Positions 7,467 through 15,471 of a stretch of 64,000 bases of DNA are shown in pieces (positions within the stretch are counted from its first letter, which is position 1; each line of letters begins with the position of its first letter). The position numbers and the translations under genes were made by a program. This DNA is from Thiomicrospira sp. XS5 (GTDB lineage Bacteria > Pseudomonadota > Gammaproteobacteria > Thiomicrospirales > Thiomicrospiraceae). A model generated the notes under the pieces. That model saw nothing but the letters and a program-made list of their open reading frames with translations, was not told the origin of the DNA and made no database searches. The DNA lies in NCBI RefSeq assembly GCF_001507555.1, contig NZ_LQBO01000002.1, positions 1 to 64,000 of the forward strand, written 5' to 3'.

Positions 7467-8564
7467 TTACTCGAAGTTTTCACCTAAATCGCCACCGGTC
7501 ATCTCACGGTAAATATGACTGGCGTTGTTTCGATGGGTCTGCTCGTAGACCGGGCGATCTTGGTACATCGACTGGTCGATCTCCAGAGCATCCTCTTCCG
7601 CACCGTCCCGATCGATGATTTTCTGCACTTCGGTTTGCATATAGGTCAAATAATCATACGTATCGCGTTTGATGGTCGCCATATCGGTCGGCGCACCGTG
7701 CCCCGGAATCACTTTGACATCGTTTGGCATCGCAGCCATCATCCGATCGAACGAGTCCACCCAGTGCAAGGTATTGGTGTAGGAGAACAACGCCAGCATC
7801 CGGCTGTTGTAAGCTAAATCCCCCGTGAGCAGGAGTTTTCGGCTCGGCACATACACCAATGTCGACCCCGGCGTATGCCCCGGCCCGAAGTTCAGCACCT
7901 CGACGGTTTCTCCGCCGCCAACATCCACGGTCAATTTATCGTCAAAGGTGGTGAATTGATCCGACACATCACGCGCCGAATGGGTGATTTCCCTTCCCAC
8001 ACGAGTGGACCAATGTTCTTTGATGTGGGCAAACCCTTTATGGAAGTCGTCATTGGCGCGTTTGTGCGAATACAGGTTTTTCACGCCCACATCCACCCAA
8101 TAACTCGCTCCGAGGTAAGCATGCCCCTGGCTATTTTCCACGGCCACCCATTTCACCGGCTTATCGGTATAGGAGCGGATCATCTTATGAAACGCCGCGG
8201 CCACCGCCGGATTGGGTCCGGCATTGAAGACAAAAACGCCGTCTTCAAAAATCATAAACGTCAGATTATTGTTCAACCCGTAGTTGGACGGATTATGCCA
8301 AATCAGACTGCCGACCACGGTATAAACCCCGTCCATGACGTTCACCGGCTTCGGTAGATGCACCGTCGGACCAATGTAACCGGCCTTGCGCTCGGTTTTG
8401 ACGACTTCTTGCGCATAACCGCTATAAGTGGCATCTCCGCCCATTTCCTTAGCATAGGTTTCAAACCCCATCACATACGGGTCTCCGGTTTTATCCCCTG
8501 CGGCCAGGGCCGCACAGGACATAAAACCAGACGACAAAATCAACGTTGATAATAAGTGTCGCAT
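7467..8564 (-). CDS. Exported metallo-beta-lactamase-fold protein with altered zinc motif
   Basis: A 365-residue protein with an N-terminal signal peptide (MRHLLSTLILSSGFMSCAALA). The MBL fold is shown by GPGHTPGSTLVYV, LLLTGDLAYN and VIPGHGAPTDM. The usual HxHxDH motif is replaced by NSQGHAYLGASYW: only one His (His148) remains and the metal-2 Asp/His are missing, so activity may be mononuclear, altered or lost. It is the last gene of a TetR - membrane protein - MBL operon and has its own terminator. The substrate is unknown; periplasmic sulfur or quinoprotein-related roles would be guesses. Confidence 0.75.
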   Translation of the reverse strand: MRHLLSTLILSSGFMSCAALAAGDKTGDPYVMGFETYAKEMGGDATYSGYAQEVVKTERKAGYIGPTVHLPKPVNVMDGVYTVVGSLIWHNPSNYGLNNNLTFMIFEDGVFVFNAGPNPAVAAAFHKMIRSYTDKPVKWVAVENSQGHAYLGASYWVDVGVKNLYSHKRANDDFHKGFAHIKEHWSTRVGREITHSARDVSDQFTTFDDKLTVDVGGGETVEVLNFGPGHTPGSTLVYVPSRKLLLTGDLAYNSRMLALFSYTNTLHWVDSFDRMMAAMPNDVKVIPGHGAPTDMATIKRDTYDYLTYMQTEVQKIIDRDGAEEDALEIDQSMYQDRPVYEQTHRNNASHIYREMTGGDLGENFE

Positions 8565-8618
8565 AACTTTTTCCTTTCAAATACGTTCAATCAATTCACT
8601 CTTTAAAATCCGTTTTAT

Positions 8619-9017
8619 TCAGGCTTTCTGCACCGAGCCGTCCACCGGTTTGGAAAAGAAGGTGGAGCGAATCAATCCCCAGCTGAAGCGCTCGGAGTGA
8701 TTCCACGGCATGAGCGACATGAAACGCGCCAGGAAGCAATAGTCAAAGAACACCATCGCGGAAGTGCCCAAAATAATGAGGTAATACAGGAAGAACAACG
8801 GCGGATACAGCGCCACCAATAACAGTGCCAGGTAAGCCAAACGCACCTGTACCGGAAAGGCTTTCACATCCGGCGTACGGGCATAGAAATGCACCACCTG
8901 TATCACGTTGAAGACAATCGCCGCTTCAATACCGTAGGGCACACCCGCCACACCGGCAATCAACAGCACATCCGTAATGGCCCAATACCACCAAACCAAA
9001 TCCATTTTTAAAATCAT
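8619..9017 (-). CDS. Small multispanning membrane protein, unknown function
   Basis: A 132-residue hydrophobic protein with about four transmembrane segments (roughly residues 7-25, 27-45, 58-80 and 83-103) and a short basic C-terminal tail. The ATG at 9017 (MILKMDLVWWYW) follows CAAGGAGCGAAA and is preferred over an in-frame ATG at 9053. I do not recognise the family. It is 54 bp upstream of the exported MBL-fold gene and downstream of the TetR gene, so it is probably induced with them, perhaps partnering the MBL-fold protein at the membrane. Confidence 0.7.
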   Translation of the reverse strand: MILKMDLVWWYWAITDVLLIAGVAGVPYGIEAAIVFNVIQVVHFYARTPDVKAFPVQVRLAYLALLLVALYPPLFFLYYLIILGTSAMVFFDYCFLARFMSLMPWNHSERFSWGLIRSTFFSKPVDGSVQKA

Positions 9018-9039
9018 TTTCGCTCCTTGAGATTTATTG

Positions 9040-9078
9040 TGAGAGCTTTGCACGAGTGGGGCGCGAGCAAAACTCTCA
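9040..9078. repeat. Solo inverted ends related to the element at 165-331
   Basis: TGAGAGCTTTGCACGAG at 9040-9056 is followed after five bases by CGCGAGCAAAACTCTCA. The left arm is the same sequence as the end of the element at 165-331, so this looks like a copy that has lost its core. It lies between the TetR gene and the membrane-protein gene and would form a hairpin in their shared transcript. Confidence 0.6.
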
Positions 9079-9109
9079 TTGTAAAAATATGTTTATCGAG
9101 CTGGCGTCA

Positions 9110-9703
9110 TCATTCCGCTGCCAAAGCCCGCCAAGCCGCTTCGGTCAGTTCATCAAAATGCGTCATCAACGGCGTGGTCAAGACGCCGTCCAGGTACAGT
9201 TGAATCAAGCGTAGGACGCTACCATACGCAATGGACGATGCCACCATCACATCCATCCGGCGCAAGACGCCGGTTTCCTGTCCTTCCAGAATGACGTCCC
9301 GTAATGTCATAAACGGTTTCGCCGAGCAGATGGGTTTTACCGACGGCATAAATTCCTTGTGGCGCGCATACAAAATAAATTGCTCCACGTCGGGATAGGT
9401 TTCCGCAAAACGTAACATCCACTCCACCAAAGCGAAGTAACGTGCCTTTACGGTTTGATGCTCCGCCAGAATCTCGGCCTGTTCCGCTTCGATGATGGCC
9501 AGCAAATGGTGCATCAACTCCGTGGCCAGCGCTTCCTTGTCTTTAAAGGCGTGGTAAATCGACCCGGTGCTGACGCCCGAGTGCTCGACCAAGTCCGGAA
9601 TCGAAGTATTGAAAAACCCTTTTTCCACGAACAACGTTAAAGCGCTTTGCAAAATACGCTTTTTAGAAGCACTGATATCCGAAGCTTCAAAAAAATTGGC
9701 CAT
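9110..9703 (-). CDS. TetR-family transcriptional regulator
   Basis: A 197-residue regulator. Residues ~10-57 form the TetR DNA-binding domain (KKRILQSALTLFVEKGFFNT, then SGVSTGSIYHAFKDKEALA). The rest is the helical ligand-binding and dimer domain. The ATG at 9703 (MANFFEASD) is used because AGGAAATGAG lies just upstream; another ATG at 9724 is less likely. Two abutting 16-bp palindromes at 9732-9761 are probable autoregulatory operators. It leads an operon with the membrane protein and the MBL-fold gene; its ligand is unknown. Confidence 0.9.
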   Translation of the reverse strand: MANFFEASDISASKKRILQSALTLFVEKGFFNTSIPDLVEHSGVSTGSIYHAFKDKEALATELMHHLLAIIEAEQAEILAEHQTVKARYFALVEWMLRFAETYPDVEQFILYARHKEFMPSVKPICSAKPFMTLRDVILEGQETGVLRRMDVMVASSIAYGSVLRLIQLYLDGVLTTPLMTHFDELTEAAWRALAAE

Positions 9704-9731
9704 GTGTCTCTCATTTCCTTGCAAATCAATT

Positions 9732-10138: not shown

Positions 10139-11596
10139 ATGGATTTAATCAGTTTATATCCAACCTGGTACGAACCAATTGTCGGTTCAGGCTGGGTGGT
10201 TGCGCTTATCGCAACCTTCCACGTGCTGGCCTCTCACACTTCCGTGGGTGCCGCACTTCTCTTTGCCTACCTGTCTCACAAAGCCTACAAAGAAGACCGA
10301 GAAGACCTGCTGGATTTCATTAAGAAATACGGCCTCTTCTTGCTGGTCTTCACCTATGTAGCCGGTTCCATTACCGGGCCAGGGATCTGGTACTCAACCA
10401 CCGTGGCGAGCCCGAACGGGATCGGCGCTCTGATTCACTCCTTCGTATGGAAGTGGGCGACGGAATGGGTTTTCTTCGTGATCGAAGTGGTCGGTGTGTA
10501 CATGATTGTGTATCTGGTCGGCAAGGTCGACAAGAAAACACACATGAAAATCTCGCTGATTTTCGGGATTGCCTCTTTGGCCACCATGGTCATTATCGTC
10601 GGGATTCTGTCGTTCATGATGGTTCCAGGGAAAGAGATGTGGTTTGAAGAAGGTGGTTACCTGAACGGTTTCTACGGCACCAACACCTTTGCGCAATTGG
10701 GTATGCGTATGGCGTTCATGTTCACCATGACAGCCGTCGTTGGCGGAATTATCATTTCCGGCATCAAAGACCCGGCCTTCAAAAAAGAAATGGCCCGTAA
10801 ACTGGGTTGGCTAGGGATTATCTCCACTCTGATCGGCGCGGCCATGTTCCAATGGTACTTAACATCTGTACCAGGCCAGGCGATTTTGGTGATGGAAAAC
10901 CGTTTACCGGACTATTTCCAAGCCAGCATCATGGCCGTATTGGCGGGTACGCTTGCCTACTTCATCATCACCATGCTACGTCCTCAAGTATTGGTTCAAG
11001 GCTTTGCCGGCGCGATGGCCGTCATCATTTTGGTGGCCGGTCTGTGGCCGGAAGAAACCGCGCGTGAATCCATGCGTAAACCTTGGGTCGCGGGTCAATA
11101 CGTTTACTCCAACCAAGTGATTGGGCGCGACGTGCCAGGCATGGACATTAAATCGCAACTGCCGACCATTGAAAAAGTGGGTATCCTTAAGGCGCATCCA
11201 TTTACGCCTGAGCACCTGAAAGAAGTCAATGACGGTAATATGATTCAGGCGGGTGAATTCATCGCCATGACTTATTGCTCCAACTGTCACTCTCCGAGCG
11301 CTACCGGGATTCGTCCTCTGCGTCGTTACTTCCCAGACGGCATCACACAGGCTCGCATGGAAGAATATGTTCGCGGGGTGCTTACCACCGGCAACATCGC
11401 TTACATGCCGAAAATGCCAATGCTGGAATCGGAAGTCAAAGCCTTATCGGCCTTCTTGGTCATGAATAAGAAAGGCGGTGAACCCGCCGTCACTGCAGCG
11501 ATTAAAAAAGAAATCTCAGACCGCGACCGTGCGCTGGCCATTAAACAAGCCGACGACAAAATTGCGAGTCTGACCGTTGAACAGGAGGGCAAATAA
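10139..11596 (+). CDS. Cytochrome bd-superfamily-like subunit I fused to a cytochrome c domain
   Basis: A 485-residue membrane protein with about eight transmembrane helices in residues 16-303, then a C-terminal cytochrome c domain with CSNCH (Cys380, Cys383, His384) and a Met-rich stretch MPKMPM (424-429) for the sixth ligand. The first helix has FHVLASHTSVG (His28), placed like the haem-ligand His of CydA. The third has TEWVFFVIE (Glu109, Glu116), reminiscent of the two conserved CydA glutamates. The CydA quinol-binding Q-loop is not apparent. This suggests a bd-family relative that takes electrons from cytochrome c rather than quinol; function is inferred. It overlaps the next gene by one base. 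Confidence 0.75.
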   Translation: MDLISLYPTWYEPIVGSGWVVALIATFHVLASHTSVGAALLFAYLSHKAYKEDREDLLDFIKKYGLFLLVFTYVAGSITGPGIWYSTTVASPNGIGALIHSFVWKWATEWVFFVIEVVGVYMIVYLVGKVDKKTHMKISLIFGIASLATMVIIVGILSFMMVPGKEMWFEEGGYLNGFYGTNTFAQLGMRMAFMFTMTAVVGGIIISGIKDPAFKKEMARKLGWLGIISTLIGAAMFQWYLTSVPGQAILVMENRLPDYFQASIMAVLAGTLAYFIITMLRPQVLVQGFAGAMAVIILVAGLWPEETARESMRKPWVAGQYVYSNQVIGRDVPGMDIKSQLPTIEKVGILKAHPFTPEHLKEVNDGNMIQAGEFIAMTYCSNCHSPSATGIRPLRRYFPDGITQARMEEYVRGVLTTGNIAYMPKMPMLESEVKALSAFLVMNKKGGEPAVTAAIKKEISDRDRALAIKQADDKIASLTVEQEGK

Positions 11597-12843
11597 TGGA
11601 TGCTGCTCAAGTTGCTCAGGTTACTGAGATGATGTACGCCCTGCGTAACCCCGCAGGGATTCCAACCTATCCGATTGTTTTCATCGCTCTGGGTGTTCTG
11701 ACCTTCGCCATGCACATTTTCTTTGTGCAGTTGATGCTGGGCACCTCTTTGATTACTCTGATCGGTGCTTTTAGTCAGAACGCTTACTGGCGTCGCCTGG
11801 GAGCAGCCATGCTGGAAATCGCCAAGGTTTCCGTCTCGGTTGCCATTGTAATCGGGGTCGCGCCGTTACTGTTTGTGCAGGTCACCTATGATCCGCACTG
11901 GTACACGTCAAACGTGCTGTCCGCCGATTGGGTCATCTCCTTTATCGTCATTTTGATTCTGGCGTATTGGGCGATGTACTTCTATTACTTCCGCAACAAC
12001 AAAGAAAAAGACAAAACCCTTCAGCCGAAATCGCGCTGGTCGATGGTTGTCAGCTTGGCGTTGATGCTGGTCGTTGGTTTCATCATGCACAGTTTGACCA
12101 AACAAATGTTGCACCCTGAACTGTGGCAAGAATGGTACATGCAGAACGGCACTCTGGATTATTCCGGTTCCCAACTGCATGCTTTCAGCCCTTGGCGTTT
12201 TGCGTTCTTCATCAGTTTGGCCATTCCGGTTGCCGGTGCCATGTTGGTGACTTACCGCCGCTTTAAGTCGGTGCGCGAAGATGCCGATCATGACTATTTG
12301 AACTGGGCGGCAAGCGTCGGCAAAAAATGGATGCTGGTCGGTTCCGTGATCTCAACCGTACTTTACATCGGTTGGATGATGACCTTACCGGAAACCGCTG
12401 GCAATTTCGCCACGTCTTTCTGGGGCATCCTCGGTGGCGCCGCGGTTCTGTTCTACGGTGTCTGGGGCTTAATCCGCCTGAGAGGCGAAGCACGCATCTG
12501 CAGCTACATGGCCTTGCCAATGGGCCTAGTGGTCGGTTTGGTTGTCGCCATCTCACGTGAAGTATTGCGTTACGACATCCTGAACGGATTCTTCAACTAC
12601 AGTTTCTTCGACTACAAAGTGATCACAGACTGGTATTCCACCGGACTGTTCTTCCTAACCTTTGCGGTTGTCGGCGGTAGCGTCTTGGCTTACTTCCTGA
12701 CCATCGCTTGGAAAGCCGGGCAAACCGTCGGCGTTTACACGCCGGGCGAAACCGTCAATAAGATGGGCACCATCGCAATTTGGATCATGACCCTGTGGAT
12801 GGTCCAGTTCTTTGCGGTTGGCTTCTATATCTGGTCACTGTAA
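11596..12843 (+). CDS. Second bd-superfamily-like membrane subunit
   Basis: A 415-residue protein with about nine to ten transmembrane helices and no CXXCH motif. Its first helix contains FAMHIFFVQLMLG with His40, again like the CydA helix-I haem ligand, so the pair could be two related haem-bearing subunits rather than a CydA/CydB pair. The start codon overlaps the previous stop (TAATG), implying translational coupling. Ten bases separate it from the downstream cytochrome c gene. It is probably the integral-membrane partner of the preceding subunit in an oxidase or electron-transfer complex. Confidence 0.65.
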   Translation: MDAAQVAQVTEMMYALRNPAGIPTYPIVFIALGVLTFAMHIFFVQLMLGTSLITLIGAFSQNAYWRRLGAAMLEIAKVSVSVAIVIGVAPLLFVQVTYDPHWYTSNVLSADWVISFIVILILAYWAMYFYYFRNNKEKDKTLQPKSRWSMVVSLALMLVVGFIMHSLTKQMLHPELWQEWYMQNGTLDYSGSQLHAFSPWRFAFFISLAIPVAGAMLVTYRRFKSVREDADHDYLNWAASVGKKWMLVGSVISTVLYIGWMMTLPETAGNFATSFWGILGGAAVLFYGVWGLIRLRGEARICSYMALPMGLVVGLVVAISREVLRYDILNGFFNYSFFDYKVITDWYSTGLFFLTFAVVGGSVLAYFLTIAWKAGQTVGVYTPGETVNKMGTIAIWIMTLWMVQFFAVGFYIWSL

Positions 12844-12853
12844 GGAGAAGACA

Positions 12854-13246
12854 ATGAAAAAACAATTATTAACCGTCTCATTCTGTGCCCTCACCCTGGC
12901 CGGAACGCACACTGCGCAAGCGGATGTTAAAACACCAACGGCCTCCGGCCAGGCCATGGCTTGGCAATGTGCGCCTTGTCACGGCACCAACGGGCAAGAG
13001 CTGCAAGAAGCCATGCCACCGTTGGCGGGCATGTCGGTCGAACAATTCACCGAAGCGATGATTGCTTATCGTGAAGGCACTCGCCCGGCGGTCATTATGG
13101 ACCGAGTTGCGCGCGGCTTCACCGATGAGGAAATCAAAGCCATGGCGGAATGGTTCGTCAAACAACCGATGAAGCCTTGGGAAGAAACCAGTTTAAAAGA
13201 GTCGTTGGCGGCACAGAAAGCCGGTTCGACAGGAGGTCAAGAATGA
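12854..13246 (+). CDS. Periplasmic monohaem cytochrome c
   Basis: A 130-residue protein with a cleavable signal peptide (MKKQLLTVSFCALTLAGTHTAQA) and one CAPCH haem site (Cys39, Cys42, His43), then PPLAGM and the class I pattern VARGFTDEEIKAMAEWF near the C-terminus. It resembles the cytochrome subunits of flavocytochrome c sulfide dehydrogenases. The ATG at 12854 follows AAGGAGAAGACA. Its stop overlaps the flavoprotein start (ATGA), so the two are probably made together and may form the flavocytochrome, FccA-like with FccB. Confidence 0.88.
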   Translation: MKKQLLTVSFCALTLAGTHTAQADVKTPTASGQAMAWQCAPCHGTNGQELQEAMPPLAGMSVEQFTEAMIAYREGTRPAVIMDRVARGFTDEEIKAMAEWFVKQPMKPWEETSLKESLAAQKAGSTGGQE

Positions 13247-14574
13247 GCCAATTAGAAAACATGACTTTCGATCGTAAAATCACACGACGCGATCTGATCA
13301 AAGTGTTCGGTGCCACGGCCGTGGCCGGGACCGGCATTTTCGGCGCAAGCAATAAAGCCTACGCCAAGTCCGCGCCACACGTTGTGGTGCTGGGCGGCGG
13401 TGTCGGTGGATCCACTTTTTCAAAGTACCTGCGATTTGCCGATCCAGACGTCAAAATCACCATCATTGAGCAGTACCCGGAATACATCACCTGCTTGCGA
13501 AGCAACGATGTTATTGTCGGTATGCACACCTTGGATGATTTGACGTTCAACTTGAACACCATCAAGTCGAAATACAACGTCAATGTGGTCATTGACAAAG
13601 TGGTCGGTGCCGACTTCGACAAGAAAACCGTGCGCACCGAAAAAGGCCACAGCTTCCAATACGACAAACTGGTGGTCTCACCGGGTATTGACTTCAAGTT
13701 TGAAGATTACGAAGGCTACGACGCTCAATTAGCCGCAGGCGATTTCCCGCACGCTTACAAAGCCGGTCCGCAAACATTGAAACTGCGCGATCAGTTGTTT
13801 GGCATGCGTAAAGGCGGCGTCGCCATTATCGCACCACCGCAAAACCCGTTCCGTTGCCCGCCTGGGCCTTATGAACGCGCGTCTTTCTTTGCGGAGCACT
13901 TCAAAAATTTCAACCCGACGGCCAAGCTGATCGTGTTGGACCCGAAAGAACGCTTCACCAAAGACGTACCGTTCAAAAAAGCTTGGGAACGCCTCTACGG
14001 TTATAAAACCGATAACGCCCTTCTGGAATGGGTGCCGGGTTCCGATGGCGGTAAAGTCGTTGGGCTGGATGCCAAAAACAAAACCGTCCTCACCGAATTC
14101 GGCGAGTACAAAGCGGATGTCATCAACATTATCCCGAACCAACGTGCCGGTAAACTGGCGCAAAAACTCGGTTTGACGGATCGTTCCGGCTGGTGTCCGA
14201 TTGACCGTAACTCGTTCGAATCCACGATTCACAAAGAAGTTTACGTTCTGGGCGACAGTAGCATTGCCGATGCGATGCCAAAATCCGGTTACTCCGCCAA
14301 CTCACAGGCCAAAGTCTGTGCGCAAGCCGTGGCCGATACGTTGAAAGGGAATCAACTGCAAAAAGCCATTTACTCCAACGTCTGTTACAGCTTGGCTGGT
14401 CAGAACTACGGGGTATCCATTGCCGCCATCTACGAGGTGCGTGACGGTTTGATTCAGCCAAAAGGCAAATCGGCCGGTGTTTCGCCGATTACCGACAAAC
14501 CGGCTCAGCCGATTCTCGAAGCCGTTTATCAAAAGAACTGGCAACGTGAATTTGTGAAAGACGTATTCTCTTGA
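13243..14574 (+). CDS. fccB: Sulfide dehydrogenase flavoprotein (FCSD flavoprotein subunit)
   Basis: A 443-residue FAD protein of the sulfide:quinone reductase / flavocytochrome c family that oxidises sulfide in the periplasm and hands electrons to cytochrome c. A twin-arginine signal (TRRDLIKVFG, residues ~15-24) is followed by the FAD-binding VVVLGGGVGGSTF. Cys residues in EYITCLRSND, NPFRCPPGPYERAS and later SNVCYSLAG include candidates for the redox-active pair and covalent FAD site. The FccB C-terminal domain with NYGVSIAAIYEV is present. The start at 13243 has an AGGAGGTCAAG ribosome site and overlaps the preceding cytochrome stop. Confidence 0.92.
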   Translation: MSQLENMTFDRKITRRDLIKVFGATAVAGTGIFGASNKAYAKSAPHVVVLGGGVGGSTFSKYLRFADPDVKITIIEQYPEYITCLRSNDVIVGMHTLDDLTFNLNTIKSKYNVNVVIDKVVGADFDKKTVRTEKGHSFQYDKLVVSPGIDFKFEDYEGYDAQLAAGDFPHAYKAGPQTLKLRDQLFGMRKGGVAIIAPPQNPFRCPPGPYERASFFAEHFKNFNPTAKLIVLDPKERFTKDVPFKKAWERLYGYKTDNALLEWVPGSDGGKVVGLDAKNKTVLTEFGEYKADVINIIPNQRAGKLAQKLGLTDRSGWCPIDRNSFESTIHKEVYVLGDSSIADAMPKSGYSANSQAKVCAQAVADTLKGNQLQKAIYSNVCYSLAGQNYGVSIAAIYEVRDGLIQPKGKSAGVSPITDKPAQPILEAVYQKNWQREFVKDVFS

Positions 14575-14589
14575 TAAAGGTGTGAGGTA

Positions 14590-15309
14590 ATGACAATGTT
14601 AAAACGAACTTTAATTTCCGCCTGCACGGCCGCCTTTATCGGACTCAGCGGTGCGGCGTTAGCCGGTGGTCATGGTGAAAAGCCAGAGGCCAACCCTTGG
14701 ACCAACTTCGCGTTGCAGAACACGCTCAACAAAATGCCGGCCGGCAATGCGGCCAACGGTAAAGAGTTGGGCGAGCAGTGGATGTGTACGGCTTGTCACG
14801 GCGAAACGGGTAAATCCCCTTCCCGTAACTACGCCTCTCTCAACGGCATGCCGAAAGAATACACCATCAAAATGATGTTGGATTATCGCGATGGACGTCG
14901 TTGGGAAAACTACAAACAAGCCAATATTATGGTCAAACTGGCGCAAAGCATGAGCGATCAGGAAATTGCGGACCTGGCGGCTTTCTATGCCGAGCAACCG
15001 CTGACCAACTGGACGGACAGCACCGATGTTGACCCTAAAATTGACCGTTTGGTGCGTAAAGGCGACGTCAATCGTATGATTACACCTTGTGCGTCCTGCC
15101 ACGGTGTGCACGGTGAAGGCCACGGTGTCGTACCGTCCTTGGCCGGTCAGGTGCCGGAGTACTTTGTCCGCACCATGAAAGCCTATCAGGACGGCCAACG
15201 CCATAACGACGTCAACCAAGGGATGTCACAATTCACCCACGACCTGACCGATGAAGAAATTCAAGGTCTGGCGGATTACTACGCGGCCATGCCGGCTGTT
15301 AAGGAGTAA
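14590..15309 (+). CDS. Dihaem cytochrome c (c4 / FccA type)
   Basis: A 239-residue exported protein with signal peptide (MLKRTLISACTAAFIGLSGAALA) and two haem sites, CTACH (Cys66, Cys69, His70) and CASCH (Cys167, Cys170, His171). Each half is a class I cytochrome with conserved LAG/LNG and DEEIQGLADYYA-type helices, as in cytochrome c4. The ATG at 14590 or 14596 is possible. It is 15 bp after fccB and 4 bp before a 32-codon membrane peptide. It probably relays electrons from sulfide dehydrogenase to the membrane subunits upstream or to other oxidases. Confidence 0.9.
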   Translation: MTMLKRTLISACTAAFIGLSGAALAGGHGEKPEANPWTNFALQNTLNKMPAGNAANGKELGEQWMCTACHGETGKSPSRNYASLNGMPKEYTIKMMLDYRDGRRWENYKQANIMVKLAQSMSDQEIADLAAFYAEQPLTNWTDSTDVDPKIDRLVRKGDVNRMITPCASCHGVHGEGHGVVPSLAGQVPEYFVRTMKAYQDGQRHNDVNQGMSQFTHDLTDEEIQGLADYYAAMPAVKE

Positions 15310-15313
15310 TATT

Positions 15314-15412
15314 ATGAATGGCATTAAAGCAATTATCTGGGGCTTGATCCTGACCTTTGGTTCAGTCGCACTGATGTGGTGGCTGAGTACCATCACAGTG
15401 GTCTCCGTTTAA
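15314..15412 (+). CDS. 32-residue single-span membrane peptide (CydX-like)
   Basis: The ATG at 15314 follows AAGGAGTAATATT, four bases after the dihaem cytochrome stop. The peptide is one hydrophobic helix (IIWGLILTFGSVALMWWL) with a short polar N-terminus (MNGIK) and no charged C-terminus. Its size and position as the last gene of a bd-like operon recall CydX/CbdX, the small single-span subunits that stabilise haems in cytochrome bd. Homology cannot be shown at this length by eye. The operon terminator follows 24 bp later. Confidence 0.65.
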   Translation: MNGIKAIIWGLILTFGSVALMWWLSTITVVSV

Positions 15413-15435
15413 CCCCAACCCACTCTCCTCAGCCG

Positions 15436-15471
15436 ACCTCCCTTTTCAGGATGAAAATGGGAGGTTTTTTT
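15436..15471 (+). terminator. Rho-independent terminator of the respiratory operon
   Basis: ACCTCCC and GGGAGGT arms enclose a second pairing, TTTTCA with TGAAAA, and are followed by seven T. It closes the operon that starts at 10139. Confidence 0.9.

Follow-up and report, generated by a model that had tools for sequence, protein, structure and literature searches.

A bd-like membrane pair encoded with a flavocytochrome c sulfide dehydrogenase in Thiomicrospira sp. XS5: a candidate route from sulfide to oxygen

Can electrons from sulfide be delivered to oxygen by a relative of cytochrome bd without passing through quinone? This question is raised by a six-gene operon at positions 10139-15412 of a 64,000-nucleotide stretch of Thiomicrospira sp. 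XS5 DNA (positions 1 to 64,000 of contig NZ_LQBO01000002.1, hereafter the window), in a genome of 2.63 Mb. The operon encodes two bd-superfamily membrane subunits (subI and subII), a monohaem cytochrome c (c1), the flavoprotein of a flavocytochrome c sulfide dehydrogenase (FCSD), a dihaem cytochrome c (c2) and a small tail peptide. The reading that we favour, and hold to be fairly probable from the sequences compared here, is that the operon encodes a dedicated sulfide:O2 electron-transfer chain. A single stable complex would be a further step beyond the chain. That the products form a physical sulfide:oxygen oxidoreductase supercomplex, with a quinone-independent bd-type oxidase holding its own sulfide dehydrogenase and divergent cassettes set on one constant core, is a tentative proposal to which we give slightly less than even credence.

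The first line of evidence comes from the conserved residues of the membrane pair. SubI (10139-11596, 485 residues; like all genes of the operon on the + strand) was compared in an alignment of 59 rows, 58 of them different, made up of the 51 members of alignment A1 and eight distant homologues. The helix-I histidine H28 (codon at 10220-10222), which aligns with H19 of CydA, is His in 59/59 rows; E109 is Glu in 59/59 and E116 in 58/59, the remaining one being Asp. Thus the CydA-like helix-I His reported in the first-pass annotation holds across the family, and the two Glu are candidates for the CydA pair, with a difference in spacing that is weighed below. In all, 41 residues of subI are invariant over the 59 rows, Thermus included, among them H28, H33, E109, R190, E306, E310, C380, C383, H384 and M423. 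The haem c site is CSNCH in the window (C380-H384, 11276-11290), and C380, C383 and H384 are present in 59/59, which supports the attachment of haem c to subI; M423 is likely the sixth ligand of this haem. In subII (11596-12843, 415 residues) H40 is His in 60/60 and H165 in 57/60 sequences. The quinol side looks different. The site aligned with the haem b558 ligand His186 (position 189 of subI) is occupied by M, I, L, F or A in 59/59 rows, whereas it is His in 27/27 canonical CydA sequences, which were obtained from 30 loci (L001, L082-L110). The GD..G motif before the Q-loop is found in 0/59 subI sequences against 27/27 canonical CydA. The suspected lack of quinol-side features therefore extends over the 59 rows, and the residue pattern fits an oxidase which has kept the active-site haem pair and lost the quinol entry. 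It should be noted here that A1 (subI) represents 49 of 60 related loci and A2 (subII) 50 of 60, each with L007 twice and the window added. Loci L010, L012, L014, L025, L048, L051, L053, L058, L059, L060 and L061 are outside A1; some of them are fragments, and no particular criterion excluded the others. In L059 (2817-4012), from a Thiobacillus metagenome-assembled genome (MAG), subI is split across two frames.

The fold of both membrane subunits points in the same direction. In subI eight long helices are predicted ahead of the haem c domain, and the subI model has a predicted local distance difference test score (pLDDT) of 70.9. When it was compared with the PDB by Foldseek, ranks 1-14 were all bd oxidase chains with a probability of 1.00, the best E-value being 2.5e-3 and none reaching 0.001 or less. 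The AlphaFold2 model of subII has a pLDDT of 87.8; ranks 1-16 of its Foldseek list were all bd oxidase chains, headed by 9r2g_A (E 1.7e-5), with four matches at or below 0.001. Profile comparison by hhalign of the diversified subI family with the 27 CydA sequences gave 95.2% (E 2.5e-8) in local and 97.3% (6.2e-11) in global mode, while reversed controls reached up to 39.9% (one control) and 3e-4. SubI and subII recognised each other with probabilities of 96.8% (local) and 98.4% (global), and 37 of the 51 members of A1 match Pfam family PF01654 at E<=1, the best at 1.2e-5. The initial description of two bd-like membrane subunits is thus upheld by fold matches for both and by a profile link to CydA for subI. 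A check for assignment to another quinone family found none, bd oxidase chains being at the top of both fold lists.

The possibility that subII is CydB was considered and rejected. It scored 0.6% against 24 CydB sequences, and its first five Foldseek hits are bd oxidase chains labelled A, which we take to be subunit I. This profile test has little power, since even CydA and CydB fail to recognise one another in it (3.1%). Neither subI nor subII matches the CydB profile there. SubII resembles a second CydA-like paralogue more closely than it does CydB, and by the homology of its two parts the pair appears closer in plan to CydAA' than to CydAB. A distant subII homologue (L136:173-1543) has its own CxxCH site, which means that both subunits can carry haem c. 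A divergent CydA-like protein was also observed in another genome of the class (L105/L137, G047:C18:565737-567296; E 2.1e-19) as an open frame of 638 residues.

The sulfide side of the operon is recognisable as well. The flavoprotein (13243-14574) is of the FccB type and matches Pfam FCSD_central at 3.7e-39 and PDB 1fcd_A at E 2.6e-117; its redox Cys pair C205/C381 is present in 57/57 copies, so its identification as FCSD stands. C84 matches Cys42 of Allochromatium vinosum (A. vinosum), which we presume to be the Cys that binds flavin adenine dinucleotide (FAD) covalently. The FCSD of the window has this Cys, as do all 22 copies from its group; among the remaining 35 FCSDs, which lie outside that group, 27 have Pro or Gly instead. 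The best PDB matches of c1 (12854-13246), which resembles the haem subunit of FCSD, are 5n1t_B, 3vrd_A and 1fcd_C, and c2 (14590-15309) is a dihaem c4-type cytochrome with its best match in 6q2u_A (E 5.9e-21). CxxCH motifs read from the sequence number one in subI, none in subII, one in c1 and two in c2. Both c1 and c2 have Sec-like leader peptides. The FCSD has a twin-arginine-like N-terminus (Pfam E 0.087), and a simple pattern finds such a leader in 32/57 copies. Given these leaders, the chain would lie in the periplasm. The FCSD of the operon is the only one found in this genome.

How constant is the association between this FCSD and the membrane pair? In 54 of the 60 related loci an FCSD gene was found within 5 kb of subI, at 1.4-3.2 kb from start to start; in the other six the contigs end 0-1750 bases beyond the subI match. 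Among 55 genomes of relatives 24 have subI, and all 24 have FCSD within 4 kb of it (count and distances read by eye from search tables); in six of these 24 it is the only FCSD found. The 54/60 and 24/24 counts are not independent, because the two sets share records (e.g. G029/L003, G025/L004, G001/L013), and the locus sample favours close relatives because the search used peptide patterns derived from the window. In a sample of 398 genomes of the phylum, FCSD was found in 96 and any match to the subI profile in 14. Three genomes, namely this one and two that are distant, have a full-length match, and in the other 11 the match covers the haem c domain alone. The two distant genomes have no FCSD on the 10.9 and 3.8 kb fetched around subI and have one on another contig. 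Linkage within the FCSD clade spans Gamma-, Beta- and one Alphaproteobacterium. Carriers include Thiomicrorhabdus chilensis DSM 12352, Thiothrix lacustris DSM 21227, Guyparkeria hydrothermalis R3 and a MAG labelled T. denitrificans (L037). The nearest named subI matches are from Thiomicrorhabdus, behind a Thiotrichales MAG. Gene order varies, as loci of the Halothiobacillus type have c1 and FCSD before subI.

Another dimension is added by the variation of the sulfide side. In the Thiomicrospira-Hydrogenovibrio-Thiomicrorhabdus group the FCSDs form two well-separated types of 11 copies each, and the clade of one type also takes in four FCSDs from other bacteria. Averaged over 8-9 loci of type a and 10 of type b, identity to the window differs strongly between types a and b for FCSD (81% vs 46%), c1 (66% vs 40%) and c2 (64% vs 50%), whereas it is nearly the same for subI (85% vs 84%) and subII (77% vs 76%) and is 77% vs 84% for the tail peptide. 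On the subI tree of this group cassette type needs seven changes, which is no fewer than by chance (371/500 shuffles as low), and the well-supported branches (9 of 20 inner branches) force at least five changes. From this identity pattern and incongruence it follows that c1, FCSD and c2 vary together as one block, and that the tail peptide goes with the oxidase core. The block reads as an exchangeable input module, and the core with its tail as the constant module. Thiomicrorhabdus heinhorstiae (L007:5999-17017) has both types in tandem, with subI-subII identical at the nucleotide level and FCSDs 47% identical; the assembly is a draft, and the near-identical block of 2.7 kb could partly be an assembly artefact. 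L012 and L058, from one MAG, have one cassette type each. An old tandem pair like that of L007, followed by differential loss and homogenisation of the cores, would also give the incongruence and is not separable from horizontal exchange.

Because the quinone-site features are absent and the pairing recurs in sulfur bacteria, the electrons of sulfide may go straight to O2. In the proposed chain FCSD, i.e. the flavoprotein with c1, would oxidise sulfide in the periplasm. The electron order that we infer runs from FAD to c1, then probably through c2, to the haem c of subI, and from there to putative active-site haems in the bd-like core of subI and subII. Here oxygen, the presumed acceptor, would be reduced to water with protons from the cytoplasm, a step that may be electrogenic, and quinone would be bypassed. 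E. coli bd oxidases are described as sulfide-tolerant (PMC4815019), and by analogy such tolerance is a plausible reason for the pairing. Gene linkage supports the direct sulfide-cytochrome c-oxidase chain proposed in the first-pass annotation as a putative route.

Several observations weigh against this reading and have to be set beside the evidence above. E109 and E116 are seven residues apart and not eight like E99 and E107 of CydA, and the alignment is gapped there; seven of the 59 subI sequences have a His in helix V, off the aligned b558 position. The subI model is of moderate confidence only. The subI of the window scores 10.2 bits against PF01654, for which the curated cut-off, a curation threshold and not a structural definition, is 26.2, and of the 19 families to which the 52 aligned subII members have matches, none is PF01654. 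Direct hhalign comparison of subII with CydA gave a non-significant 7.7%. Narrow subI alignments reached a non-significant 0.9-6.8% against CydA, at best weakly above the reversed controls of up to 1.6%; these runs used 9 and then 14 CydA sequences, and the later run 27 together with the eight distant subI homologues. On the side of physiology, five genomes of the family have FCSD and no subI, which means that FCSD does not need this oxidase. The genome of strain XS5 also has cbb3, a canonical CydA and two flavoproteins resembling sulfide:quinone oxidoreductase (below cut-off), which gives the electrons of sulfide and of FCSD possible parallel routes.

The alternative that survives best takes up these last points. 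SubI and subII would be a general cytochrome c oxidase, FCSD would feed a common cytochrome c pool, and the genes would be co-regulated with no dedicated chain. The cbb3 of this genome and the five subI-less genomes agree with it, and so do the distant homologues that occur with no FCSD nearby, some of them with RegB/RegA-like genes and genes for small cytochromes c as neighbours, since these show that the oxidase can draw on other electron sources. It does not explain well why linkage with FCSD is kept across Gamma-, Beta- and one Alphaproteobacterium and in all 24 subI-bearing genomes of the family, although FCSD is common without subI (96 of 398 genomes against three with full-length subI). 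We therefore regard loose coupling as unlikely, though it deserves to be taken seriously.

The distant homologues also bear on the origin of the chain. In a quickly built subI tree with midpoint rooting, in which long branches were flagged and the FCSD labels set by hand, the FCSD-linked subI sequences, together with four loci cut by contig ends, are one clade (Shimodaira-Hasegawa-like approximate likelihood ratio test support 96), and eight FCSD-less sequences are outside it. Thus the sulfide link looks like a specialisation derived from an older cytochrome c oxidase. Around three further subI copies, with 50-51% identity, the 13 kb fetched contain no FCSD gene. Genes of a RegB/RegA-like (PrrBA) redox regulator adjoin FCSD-less subI/subII in Methylosinus, Agrobacterium and two genomes of the family (L145, L146), and in a third (L147) such a regulator pair is about 4 kb away; all these scores are below the curated cut-offs. 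The loci with this combination are L141, L144, L145, L146 and L147, and the neighbourhood is possibly an ancestral or regulatory context. Two plasmid copies from Thermus have neither FCSD nor RegB/RegA-like genes on the stretches fetched. These copies (Thermus thermophilus, L142 and L143; subI about 33% identical) are near a metal ABC transporter and SaoD/DsrE-like genes, and the Methylosinus plasmid copy (L141:14226-19368) is near a methanobactin biosynthesis cluster.

Could the membrane pair be something other than an O2 reductase, for instance a haem relay that passes FCSD electrons to another acceptor such as nitric oxide or quinone? The active-site assignment comes from alignment and fold alone, some hallmark positions differ, and membrane subunits of Alternative complex III occupy ranks 17-21 in the Foldseek list of subII, with E 0.026 and worse. 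Electron transfer from cytochrome c to quinone is energetically uphill, and a relay to quinone sits badly with the lack of the GD..G motif and of a His at the aligned b558 position, while the conserved H28, E109 and E116 argue for an oxygen-reducing site; the relay is quite improbable. A redox sensor or degenerate paralogue is the least credible identity for the pair and very improbable. The below-cut-off RegB/RegA-like genes beside FCSD-less copies (about 4 kb off in L147) speak for it, but no such regulator adjoins the operon of the window, where the upstream regulator is TetR-like, and 41 invariant residues over 59 rows including Thermus do not suggest decay.

The dedicated chain, then, remains our preferred reading, and the layout of the operon is that of a compact unit. 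As first annotated, all six genes are present and a terminator closes the set, a hairpin followed by a T-run being found at 15435-15466 on the + strand (-17.6 kcal/mol, z -3.68; 0/200 shuffles equally good). This hairpin is absent from the output of a simple terminator scan (nine other sites vs 7.5 expected), perhaps because of its bulge. Of the several overlaps claimed, two exist, subI/subII by 1 nt and c1/FCSD by 4 nt; the other three junctions are gaps of 10, 15 and 4 nt. No sigma-70-like site on the + strand was found by a simple promoter scan from 9700 to subI. The tail gene (15314-15412) encodes a single-span peptide of 32 residues, which resembles CydX by position and size only; among the loci searched it is confined to the Thiomicrospira-Hydrogenovibrio-Thiomicrorhabdus group and was not found in those outside it. 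Upstream, on the - strand (7467-9724), are genes for a metallo-beta-lactamase-fold protein, a small membrane protein and a TetR regulator. The best NCBIfam match of the first is the SoxH-related quinoprotein relay hydrolase family, below cut-off, and the metallo-beta-lactamase and TetR genes are likewise upstream in loci L015 and L016.

How does this operon relate to what is known? Murali, Gennis and Hemp reportedly described non-quinol bd families, OR-C and OR-N, in 2021. OR-C is defined by haem c fused to subunit I. The same trait is seen here in C380, C383, H384 and M423, and the natural reading of the pair is a cytochrome-c-fed oxygen reductase resembling OR-C, a family resemblance by description and not a placement among OR-C sequences. 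According to PMC8509429, every bd-type cytochrome that had been characterised biochemically by 2021 was a quinol oxidase, although families with cytochrome c or another donor are predicted. Phylogeny has shown non-quinol families, for some of which cytochrome c is the presumed donor (parts of PMC10839748 and PMC8509429). For Hydrogenovibrio, FCC and CydAB are listed and are unlinked in the text examined (part of PMC5733100), and the surroundings of fccAB have been treated for a group including A. vinosum and C. limicola (part of PMC6382920). Full-text literature searches, which did not cover the 2021 work of Murali and co-workers, returned no description of an FCSD/bd-like pairing or of cassette exchange. 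Non-quinol bd families are thus known, and the conserved operon with FCSD and the exchange of cassettes are new as far as searched. The operon points to FCSD, acting via haem c, as the likely natural donor of one non-quinol bd family. If this is true, sulfur oxidisers would gain an oxidase that receives its electrons directly from sulfide and probably tolerates it, and the question of the donor of non-quinol bd oxidases becomes testable with purified components.

Compared with canonical cytochrome bd (CydAB; 6rko, 5doq), the pair shares the fold and the helix-I His, and probably the two Glu of helix III, but has no aligned b558 His and no GD..G motif, a haem c domain is added, and the second subunit is homologous to the first. 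With OR-C/OR-N it has in common a divergent place in the bd superfamily, no quinol site, a putative cytochrome c donor and two CydA-like subunits, as proposed for CydAA'; the difference is the operon with FCSD, monohaem c, dihaem c and tail peptide. With FccAB (1fcd, 3vrd, 5n1t) it shares the flavoprotein, the redox Cys pair and a c-type partner. Here, in contrast, these are encoded with a membrane oxidase, and the monohaem partner is accompanied by a separate c4-like dihaem cytochrome; monohaem FCSD partners are already reported from Guyparkeria, Thiohalobacter and Thioalkalivibrio (part of PMC6504805). The membrane-bound FCSD of Thiobacillus sp. W5, given in a kinetics row citing Visser et al. 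1997 (part of PMC3504083), is a further likeness, since there too a colourless sulfur bacterium has its FCSD at the membrane. The nearest parallel in genetic plan is in Nitrospirales, where Alternative complex III has an OR-N5 CydAA' encoded downstream (part of PMC12342949). In both cases a bd-like oxidase is genetically tied to its likely donor complex, but the donor there is Alternative complex III and here it would be a sulfide dehydrogenase.

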